From: Nitrosomonadales bacterium
GTDB lineage: Bacteria; Pseudomonadota; Gammaproteobacteria; Burkholderiales; Gallionellaceae
Direction: 5' to 3'
NCBI GenBank assembly: GCA_016177795.1
Contig: JACOUM010000010.1
Coordinates: 62,001-126,000 of the forward strand
DNA: 64,000 nucleotides
Shown: positions 59,586 to 62,754 of the stretch, piece by piece
How positions within the stretch are numbered: position 1 is the stretch's first letter
Layout of the letters: the number at the start of each line of letters is the position of its first letter
Notes under the pieces: model-generated
What the model saw: only the letters and a program-made list of their open reading frames with translations
Told to the model about the DNA's origin: nothing
The model's database searches: none
Program-made: the position numbers and the translations under genes

Positions 59586-60866
59586 ATGACTTCGCATAAT
59601 CAAGAGTTGTTCAACGAATCCCAGAAAGTCATCCCGGGCGGCGTGAATTCGCCGGTGCGCGCGTTCCGCTCGGTCGGCGGCACGCCGCTGTTCTTCCAGC
59701 GCGGCCAGGGTGCCTATGTGTGGGACGCGGACGGCAAAAGATATACCGATTACGTCGGCTCCTGGGGGCCGATGATCGTAGGTCATTGTCACCCCGACGT
59801 AGTCAAGGCGGTGCAGGACGCAGCGGCGCAGGGACTGGGCTTCGGCGCGCCGACCGCAGCCGAGCTGGAACTGGCCAACCTGCTGTGCAAGCTGTTGCCG
59901 AGCCTGGAAATGGTGCGCCTGGTCAGCTCCGGCACGGAAGCGACGATGAGCGCGATTCGCCTGGCGCGCGGCTTCACCGGGCGTTCGCGCATCGTCAAAT
60001 TCGAGGGTTGTTACCACGGCCACTCCGACGGGCTGCTGGTGAAGGCCGGCTCCGGCGCGCTGACCTTCGGCCAGCCGAGCTCTTCCGGCGTGCCCGCCGA
60101 GATCGCGGCCTTGACCACGGTGCTGGACTACAACGATGCCGCCGGTTTGGAAAAAGCCTTCGCCGCGATGGGCAACGAGATCGCCGCGGTGATCGTCGAA
60201 GTGGTGGCGGGCAACATGAATCTGGTTGCGCCCAGACGCGAATTCCTCGATGCGATGCGCGCGTTATGTACGAAATACGGCGCGGTGCTGATTCTCGACG
60301 AGGTGATGACCGGTTTCCGCGTCGGCTTGCAGGGCGCGCAGGGTTATTACGGCATCAAGCCGGACCTGGTTACGCTGGGTAAGGTGATGGGCGGCGGCCT
60401 GCCCGCCGCAGCCTTTGGCGGGCGGCGCGACATCATGCAATGCCTCGCGCCGCTCGGCGCGGTATACCAGGCCGGCACCTTGTCCGGCAATCCGGTCGCG
60501 GTAGCGGCCGGGTTGGCCACGCTGAAACTGGTGCAAGCCCCCGGTTTCTACGAACATCTCTCGCAACTCGCGAAACAGCTCACCGAAGGCCTGACCGCAG
60601 CGGCGGTCAAGCGCGGCATCCCGTTCTGTGCGCAATCTATCGGCGGCATGTTCGGCCTGTATTTCAGCAAGTCGCTGCCGACCAGCTATGCCGAGGTGAT
60701 GAGCTGCGACAAGGAAGCGTTCAACCGCTTCTTCCACGCGATGCTGGACGCGGGCCATTACCTCGCGCCGTCGGCGTTCGAGGCGGGCTTCGTCTCCGCC
60801 GCGCATAGCGAGGCGGACATCGCCGCCACGGTCGCCGCGGCCGATAAAATCTTCGCCAACTGGTAA
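59586..60866 (+). CDS. hemL: Glutamate-1-semialdehyde 2,1-aminomutase HemL
   Basis: HemL makes 5-aminolevulinate from glutamate-1-semialdehyde, the C5 route of heme synthesis. It has 426 residues; [20 protein letters not shown] is the family start. [16 protein letters not shown] and the PLP-Lys motif [17 protein letters not shown] are present. The stop overlaps the engB ATG by one base (TAATG). hemB, the next pathway enzyme, is encoded 0.9 kb downstream. Confidence 0.97.
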
Positions 60867-61468
60867 TGGGGTTGTTTTCGCAGGCGGCGTTCTACACCAC
60901 CGTCAATCATTTGCGCGACCTGCCGCAGCACGGCGGCAGGGAAGTCGCCTTCGTCGGGCGTTCCAACGCGGGCAAGTCGAGTGCGATCAATACGCTGGCC
61001 AACCATGTGCGCCTGGCCTACACCAGCAAGACGCCGGGGCGCACCCAGCATCTCAATTACTTTTCGCTGGGTGACAACAACTTTCTGGTGGACTTGCCCG
61101 GGTATGGCTACGCCAAGGTTCCGCCGGACGTGCAGCGGCATTGGGAAAATCTGCTCAGCCAGTATTTGCAAACCCGCAGTGAGTTGGCCGGGCTGGTGAT
61201 CATCATGGATGCGCGCCACCCGCTGACCGAACTGGACGAGAACATGCTGGACTGGTTCGCGCCGACCAACAAGCCGGTGCACATCCTGCTGACCAAATCG
61301 GACAAACTCAGCAGGCAGCAGGCCACATTGACGCTGAATCGCGTAAAATCCCATCTGGCCGAACATTTCTCACAGTGTTCCGTGCAGTTGTTTTCCAGTT
61401 TGAAAAAAATCGGCATGGAGGAGGCGGAAGCGGTGATCGCGAGCTGGTTCGCGGTAAACAAAATTTAA
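60866..61468 (+). CDS. engB: Ribosome-biogenesis GTPase EngB (YihA/YsxC)
   Basis: EngB is an essential GTPase in 50S assembly and cell division. It has 200 residues, with GTPase motifs G1 [12 protein letters not shown]2-region [15 protein letters not shown]3 [12 protein letters not shown] and G4 [10 protein letters not shown]. The ATG at 60866 is coupled to the hemL stop. A repeat element follows its stop. Confidence 0.96.
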
Positions 61469-61490
61469 AGCTCTAAGCCAGACAAGGCGC

Positions 61491-61566
61491 ACGAGCAAAA
61501 TCGCCGCGCCGCATACATGGGGTATGTAAGCAAGATTCTTCGAGGGCAACACAGTATGGCGACGAG
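61491..61566. repeat. CAAGGCGC-type repeat downstream of engB
   Basis: GACAAGGCGCACGAGCAAAA opens it, GCATACATGGGGTATGTAAG is the central hairpin (CATAC/GTATG), and GGGCAACACAGTATGGCGAC closes it. It has the same order of blocks as 39131-39190 and 58807-58949. The flanks show no gene. Confidence 0.65.
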
Positions 61567-61583
61567 ATTTGAATTTTACCGGC

Positions 61584-61685
61584 AAAAAAATGCCCCTGAG
61601 CCAAAGGGGAGGCCAGGGGCAAAGTCTTAACAGGGTTAAGACACCCGCTCAGGGAGGAGAAACGGGGAGTGACTCGCGCCACTCA
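61584..61685 (-). ncRNA. Putative sRNA with anti-Shine-Dalgarno loops
   Basis: Read on the minus strand, about 100 nt fold into four hairpins. Hairpin 1 is GAGTGGC-GCGA-GTCACTC (one G-U pair, GNRA loop). Hairpin 2 has a CCCG/CGGG stem with loop TTTCTCCTCCCTGAG. Hairpin 3 is GTCTTAAC-CCT-GTTAAGAC. Hairpin 4 is TGCCCCTG/CAGGGGCA with CTCCCC in the loop, followed by seven T. CTCCTCCC in hairpin 2 is complementary to the Shine-Dalgarno core. Hairpin 4 with its T-run is a good intrinsic terminator. The pattern resembles the betaproteobacterial toxic sRNA class with C-rich loops; identity needs a covariance search. It lies in the engB-hemB gap, antisense to the hemB direction. Confidence 0.75.
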
Positions 61686-61691
61686 CAACAT

Positions 61692-61719
61692 CAGATAAGC
61701 GATTTCTAAAATAGTTCAA
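61692..61719 (-). promoter_or_regulatory. Promoter of the putative sRNA
   Basis: On the minus strand TTGAAC (61719-61714) is followed after 16 bp by TATCTG (61697-61692), an acceptable sigma70 promoter. Transcription would start near 61685, just before hairpin 1. Confidence 0.5.
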
Positions 61720-61737
61720 CGGATAGTGAAAATTTAG

Positions 61738-62754
<1,017 letters not shown>

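Follow-up and report, generated by a model that had tools for sequence, protein, structure and literature searches.

An anti-hemB (RF02837) small RNA gene with a sigma-E-type promoter between engB and hemB in a Gallionellaceae genome

The small RNA gene and its neighbours

The stretch of DNA analysed here (the window, 64,000 nucleotides of contig JACOUM010000010.1 from the Gallionellaceae assembly GCA_016177795.1) harbours a gene of about 100 nt for a small RNA (sRNA) at positions 61684-61584 of the minus strand, between engB and hemB, which are both encoded on the plus strand. The 5' end of the RNA is estimated to lie at about 61684-61689. The locus comprises the following features, where R1 denotes a covariance model built from 21 copies of the RNA:

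61584..61685, minus strand: anti-hemB sRNA gene (RF02837 match 61668-61584, model R1 match 61689-61584, fold)
61712..61718, minus strand: -35 element TGAACTA of the sigma-E-type promoter
61691..61695, minus strand: -10 element TCTGA of the same promoter, spacer 16
61667..61684, minus strand: hairpin 1 (fold and covariation)
61644..61666, minus strand: hairpin 2, which holds the anti-Shine-Dalgarno loop (fold and covariation)
61652..61659, minus strand: CUCCUCCC in the loop of hairpin 2
61624..61642, minus strand: hairpin 3 (fold and covariation)
61584..61621, minus strand: terminator hairpin with C-rich loop (61610-61603) and U-tract (61590-61584)
60866..61468, plus strand: engB, convergent neighbour (Pfam MMR_HSR1, ribosome-binding GTPase)
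61747..62754, plus strand: hemB, divergent neighbour (Pfam ALAD, E 9e-137)

We take the gene at 60866..61468 to be engB, the name given in the original prediction, with which the sequence agrees. A class-III aminotransferase gene near engB, presumably hemL, and hemB flank engB and the sRNA (window 59586-62754), i.e. two haem-synthesis genes.

A cmscan search of the whole window yields a single match above a gathering score, RF02837 anti-hemB with 61.3 bits (gathering cut-off 49.5, E 7.1e-12), and the source genome, which is 73.8% complete, likewise contains one RF02837 match above the cut-off. The locus is a real sRNA gene of this known family. Based on the Rfam match, the fold and the conservation in relatives, the predicted minus-strand sRNA gene of about 100 nt is confirmed, and the match together with the conservation excludes chance. 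The original prediction had left open whether the RNA belongs to a new class or to the betaproteobacterial toxic sRNAs, and had proposed a covariance search with Rfam models. This search finds RF02837 at a score above cut-off, which speaks against a new class, and does not find the toxic sRNA family RF02278 (thresholds E<=5 for the region and E<=0.01 for the genome).

The four hairpins, the C-rich loops and the terminator that had been predicted are all present in the minus-strand fold, which has a minimum free energy of -49.1 kcal/mol (z -6.27) and is equalled in stability by none of 200 shuffled sequences. The CCUCC of the hairpin 2 loop is 99% unpaired in the predicted ensemble, and the proposed complementarity to the Shine-Dalgarno core is supported for CUCCUCCC in this loop. 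With both strands searched, CTCCTCCC at 61659-61652 (minus strand) is the sole copy in the 64-kb window. The terminator hairpin exposes a second C-rich loop, UCCCCUUU (61610-61603), and is followed by seven Ts (61590-61584).

The listing of RF02837 assigns it to Burkholderia; the literature found, available in part, includes two papers with the RNA in a table and assigns no function to it. The B. cenocepacia member ncS04, of 105 nt, has been mapped as a transcript and blotted, according to the accessible sections of PMC5688073. It shares with the window copy a sequence and structure above the gathering score, the hemB neighbour, a length of about 100 nt, the C-rich loop and the terminator, while the window copy, from a Gallionellaceae-type host, has a sigma-E-type promoter and the Burkholderia copies have another one. 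The toxic sRNAs of RF02278 (ncS27, S17) resemble anti-hemB in their C-rich loops complementary to ribosome-binding sites, but form a separate family that is unmatched in the window.

Matches to RF02837 above the cut-off occur in 55 of the 61 relatives, in 190 of the 300 genomes sampled from the order and in 14 of 274 class-level genomes, where the source genome and genome G085 belong to the window's order, from which at least three of the 274 come. Twenty-one genomes of other orders have a match at E<=1e-9 among these 274, 12 of them above the cut-off. In 14 control genomes subjected to the same three RF02837 searches no match exceeds the cut-off, with weaker matches in up to five. The closest hemB genes are from metagenome-assembled genomes named Nitrosomonadales, Gallionella and Sideroxydans.

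Covariation, the fixed loop and genomic context

In the R1 alignment 14 of 25 base pairs have changed on both sides and 94.8% of cells are paired, compared to at most 50% once the partners are slid against each other. Among 55 distinct rows from hemB loci, 24 of 27 pairs have both partners changed, and double-change cells number 229 compared to 55 in shuffled controls; this alignment was fitted to R1 and hence leans towards the model. For the loop we analysed 175 distinct copies, after leaving out three duplicates and three weak matches (L037, L038, L041). CCUCCCU is kept in 167 of them, always inside model body positions 23-60, and CCUCCCUGA in 163, while a regular expression for the C-rich motif on the terminator side is matched in 89. 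Covariation in all four helices, combined with a fixed loop, is a new observation; the original prediction had itself named loops that vary freely and stems without covariation as grounds for its rejection, and it has withstood this comparison.

Two extra copies from two genomes of the window's genus (L227, L235) carry CUCCUCCC in hairpin 3, where it is partly paired in the predicted fold of L227, and have a changed hairpin 2 loop. This suggests that selection acts on the motif rather than on its position; the motif seems to move between hairpins.

R1 matches are present in 55 of 80 hemB loci, and all 56 matches are opposite in strand to hemB. The 25 loci without the RNA comprise six from named gammaproteobacterial genera or orders, five assigned to Gammaproteobacteria only and one with 297 bases upstream; most of the others are betaproteobacterial loci in which the gene seems to be absent from this place, and at least 12 of the 25 are from named betaproteobacteria, such as Methylophilaceae, Comamonas, Delftia, Janthinobacterium and two Polaromonas. 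A further 119 distinct copies comprise 88 that are flanked by hemB, always divergent, and 31 that are not, 12 of the latter being located beside engB and one (L186) having only 48 bases upstream. The C-rich loop is retained in copies that lack a flanking hemB. Thus, the name anti-hemB denotes a neighbour and not necessarily a target. In the window only 28 bp separate the -35 element from the hemB start codon, so that the promoters of the sRNA and of hemB must overlap.

Some genomes carry several copies, for example the six RF02837 matches in genome G268 (including L214 and L215), and neighbouring pairs of anti-hemB copies occur at L056, L223, L404, L407 and L417.

The promoter and its relation to rpoE

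A sigma-70 consensus scan of 61400-61900 finds no promoter; the promoter named in the original prediction is of sigma-E type. The E. coli sigma-E consensus is GGAACTT-N15-17-TCTnA, and we scored the copies over 11 positions against this consensus. The window promoter agrees at 9 of 11 positions, has a spacer of 16 and is conserved in place. A score of at least 9 is reached by 124 of 174 copies (L186, with its 48 upstream bases, was dropped from the 175) compared to 0.65% of shuffled segments, a control that leaves kinship uncorrected. In 116 of the 124 matches the -35 element starts 28-30 nt before the model start; five of the eight matches off the usual place are Paraburkholderia-type copies with an offset of 36, which we do not count as the same element. 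The in-place promoters are found in 40 of 48 copies from the window's family (40 copies) or Gallionella-like hemB loci (8), and in 76 of 126 copies outside these. In other orders 15 of 23 copies attain a score of 9 or more, compared to 0.5 in shuffles.

The promoter is absent from the Paraburkholderia/Burkholderia copies L083, L086, L087, L106, L117 and L121 and from the Variovorax-type copies L071, L074, L077, L079 and L080. Read by eye, Burkholderia/Paraburkholderia and Variovorax-type copies have TATGAT/TATCAT or TTGAAA-N17-TAAATT-like sites instead, and in these types a housekeeping promoter seems to have taken the place of the sigma-E-type one. The available part of PMC5688073 (Table 2) gives ncS04 as unchanged in all seven conditions in B. 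cenocepacia, which fits the promoter without sigma-E in this lineage.

To relate the promoter to RpoE itself we analysed the region upstream of rpoE in 40 genomes, one region per genome. The core GAACTW-N16/17-TCT occurs in 22 of the 40 in forward orientation and in none in reverse, with 0.1 expected from shuffles; the core was picked after earlier rpoE scans had been seen and is hence not independent, while the reverse-strand and shuffle controls stand. The strict score shows a mild enrichment at the same 40 regions, with 10 scoring at least 9 compared to 2.9 in shuffles (largest 7) and none scoring 10 or more. In an earlier rpoE set, rich in the window's genus, the motif is found in only 5 of 31 loci, and most rpoE genes of this genus have a TTATACT-type promoter as read by eye. 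Four rpoE loci of one family (L294, L295, L296, L307) are without the core, and the sRNA copies of this family, where seen (L159, L160, L175), resemble those of Paraburkholderia.

At the genome level the strict motif occurs 3-6 times in each of six Gallionellaceae genomes, the anti-hemB promoter being among these in five of the six. As the motif is rarer than its reversed control (4-17 per genome), there is no regulon-wide signal. The GRAACTW form is found at two places in the source genome, neither of them an evident sigma-E gene, and misses the window's own promoter, which starts TGAACT. The source genome does contain rpoE, followed by open reading frames that we take to be rseABC. An RpoE match is absent from 41 of 300 genomes of the order. 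Among the 20 of these that were listed, the 15 with a completeness of 98% or more are all without an anti-hemB match at E<=1e-10 but cluster in few families, and four less complete ones carry the RNA. Many genomes of the order have RpoE and no anti-hemB. The co-occurrence of anti-hemB and RpoE is thus only a hint.

Taken together, the promoter data suggest that envelope stress may switch on the anti-hemB RNA. The window sRNA shares a sigma-E-type promoter with the sigma-E-dependent sRNAs MicA, RybB and ErsA, and the core of this promoter is also present at rpoE upstream regions. New here are the sigma-E-type promoter, its change in particular lineages and the connection with the polA-engB sRNA locus described below; we found no literature linking RF02837 with sigma-E or polA-engB sRNAs in a search in which subscription journals were largely outside the scope.

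The polA-engB locus, mode of action and alternatives

From the 21 genomes of other orders with RF02837 matches 20 loci were fetched (G460 was left out), four of which end early at contig ends. Ten of the 20 have polA upstream in the same orientation, and 11 have a convergent engB downstream; 6 loci combine the two, and 15 show at least one of them. DNA polymerase I was confirmed by Pfam in all eight loci tested. In the window the engB side is kept and the polA side is not. The arrangement in other orders has the same layout as polA-spf-yihA (engB) in E. coli K-12, i.e. polA, the Spot 42 gene and convergent engB/yihA, which the accessible text of PMC3295665 also describes. Beside other copies of the RNA lie an M48 peptidase gene, upstream in place of polA (L412, 1-1416, plus strand), and a c-di-GMP-I riboswitch of 77.9 bits about 450 bases away (L411, 2037-2121, minus strand).

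Several sRNAs are known from this locus. The ErsA gene lies between polA and engB, and Spot 42 serves catabolite control and is not known to be under sigma-E. The Xanthomonas sRNA sX13 (RF02232) is located at polA, where Spot 42 and ar7 RNAs have also been noted; it has three hairpins and represses through C-rich loops and G-rich motifs, and its authors asked whether sRNAs lie at polA loci elsewhere and whether related RNAs act alike (PMC3771888, in the text available). It differs from anti-hemB in being Hfq-independent according to the same text, and anti-hemB matches remain below its gathering score. As far as the accessible texts report, ErsA depends on sigma-22, a functional homologue of sigma-E (PMC7565897, PMC8395346), and is a functional orthologue of Spot 42 (PMC8395346). 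ErsA, i.e. Pseudomon-1 (RF01719) of Pseudomonas, resembles anti-hemB in its envelope-stress sigma factor and in the C-rich stretches of its model consensus. It differs in score, as the window reaches 15.9 of 50 bits and the best bridging member 30.3.

These bridging matches come from a search of 14 other-order loci against Rfam, in which L420 has a weak match to the sX13 model, as have L409 and L402 to that of ErsA. L420 alone scores 37.9 bits against sX13 (E 5.2e-6, gathering score 50). L409 alone scores 35.3 bits with ar14, 30.3 with ErsA (E 1.9e-4) and 25.9 with sX13, none at the gathering score. The window itself reaches 21.8 of 50 bits with sX13, which is outranked by mmgR (26.0 bits). 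Neither the sX13 nor the ErsA model has a match at E<=1 in 18 loci of the window's order, and the Spot 42 region of E. coli gives none with R1. Place, promoter and architecture therefore make common descent with the polA-engB sRNAs plausible, and the sequences do not prove it. Anti-hemB is best seen as a putative betaproteobacterial branch of the polA-engB-locus sRNA lineage, in which the polA side has been replaced by hemB.

With regard to the mode of action, ncS04 is stated to bind Hfq in the available part of PMC5688073. For RF02278-type RNAs, pairing with ribosome-binding sites has been predicted or demonstrated (PMC5688073, PMC11722255), and in RIL-seq of Bordetella two C/T-rich sRNAs make up over 73% of the sRNA-mRNA chimeras, with a Shine-Dalgarno-like motif common to their partners (PMC12235514), all according to the sections accessible. 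From the likeness to these RNAs and to sX13 we infer that the anti-hemB loop may block ribosome-binding sites of mRNAs. A preference for outer-membrane protein mRNAs is not seen: the start regions of 29 porin and 29 OmpA-domain genes of the genus (30 loci fetched each) show no greater complementarity to the loop than a set of 98 six-frame ORFs from the window, each 200 codons or longer (Mann-Whitney p 0.44 and 0.40), in a test that is noisy as start codons were set by script and the ORF set includes non-genes. The pattern AGGGAGGAG-N4..9-ATG occurs in 37 of 41 genomes of the genus, and 20 of the places listed are the sRNA's own antisense strand. The other recurrent genes among 30 perfect-seed loci inspected encode a 51-aa peptide (six genomes) and a murE-like protein (three genomes). 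The peptide gene (L310, L313, L317, L322, L328, L337) has AGGGAGGAG, complementary to the loop, in its start region; the peptide is membrane-like by eye, and one copy is without a Pfam match above cut-off. At L316 (source genome), L323 and L325 a gene, presumably murE, starts with CAGGGAGGAGGTGTRATG, which is complementary to the loop over ten bases.

The comparison shows the structure, the strand, the fixed C-rich loop, the engB and hemB neighbours and a sigma-E-type promoter whose core also stands upstream of rpoE. We consider it probable that anti-hemB is a trans-acting, base-pairing envelope-stress sRNA that blocks ribosome-binding sites and forms the betaproteobacterial branch of the polA-engB lineage, and that it is not primarily a regulator of hemB. 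Upon envelope stress RpoE would transcribe anti-hemB; together with Hfq, the CUCCUCCC loop would block ribosome binding to a set of mRNAs by pairing with their G-rich Shine-Dalgarno regions.

A cis regulator, which would lower hemB expression through the divergent overlapping promoter or as antisense to a long hemB leader, is rather unlikely. The RNA does lie divergent to hemB in 55 of 80 hemB loci and in all 88 further copies with hemB in the flank, with the overlap of promoters given by the 28 bp to the start codon. However, the 31 of 119 copies without flanking hemB keep the loop, which argues for action in trans, polA is the neighbour in other orders, and the loop is the most conserved part, which antisense pairing would not favour. 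The near-invariance of the loop could instead point to a general mimic of the 16S 3' end, or to a ribosome or Hfq decoy that lowers translation overall rather than that of selected mRNAs; the CCUCC of the loop is also present in the 16S tail. Nevertheless the conservation extends beyond CCUCC (CCUCCCUGA in 163 of 175 copies), into letters that to our knowledge are absent from the 16S tail. While overexpression of the RF02278 RNA ncS27 slows growth, as stated in the available text of PMC5688073, related RNAs act on gene sets, and we regard a mimic or decoy as unlikely.

Membership in RF02278 is very improbable. Its C-rich loops and terminator are similar and seven anti-hemB copies of the genus match it weakly at the same place, but it has no match at the thresholds given above in the region or the genome and R1 gives RF02278 loci at most 16.6 bits. 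The least probable reading is a conserved element on the plus strand, i.e. a leader or small ORF before hemB (GGGAGGAG followed by ATG or GTG). Although AGGGAGGAGAAACGTGGAATG recurs in the genus, the ORFs at seven loci have 8-13 codons (one has 35) with no common sequence past the first residues, and the leader ORF was rejected on these grounds; the U-G pairs in the stems and the U-tract, moreover, identify the minus strand as the RNA strand.

For the preferred reading of anti-hemB as a trans-acting envelope-stress sRNA, the comparison indicates that RF02837 probably responds to envelope stress via RpoE, probably blocks ribosome-binding sites with its fixed C-rich loop and probably originated at the polA-engB locus. 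The anti-hemB loci make the question of the sX13 authors on other polA loci testable, and the promoter difference between lineages provides a natural experiment on the rewiring of one sRNA. We tentatively propose, as a possibility short of an even chance, that anti-hemB, ErsA, sX13 and Spot 42, perhaps with the alphaproteobacterial ar7 and ar14, may derive from one ancestral sigma-E-controlled polA-engB sRNA with C-rich anti-Shine-Dalgarno loops, whereby Betaproteobacteria would have kept engB and exchanged polA for hemB and the Burkholderia and Variovorax types would have lost sigma-E control. If this is true, the envelope-stress response would have in anti-hemB a post-transcriptional arm of ancient origin.
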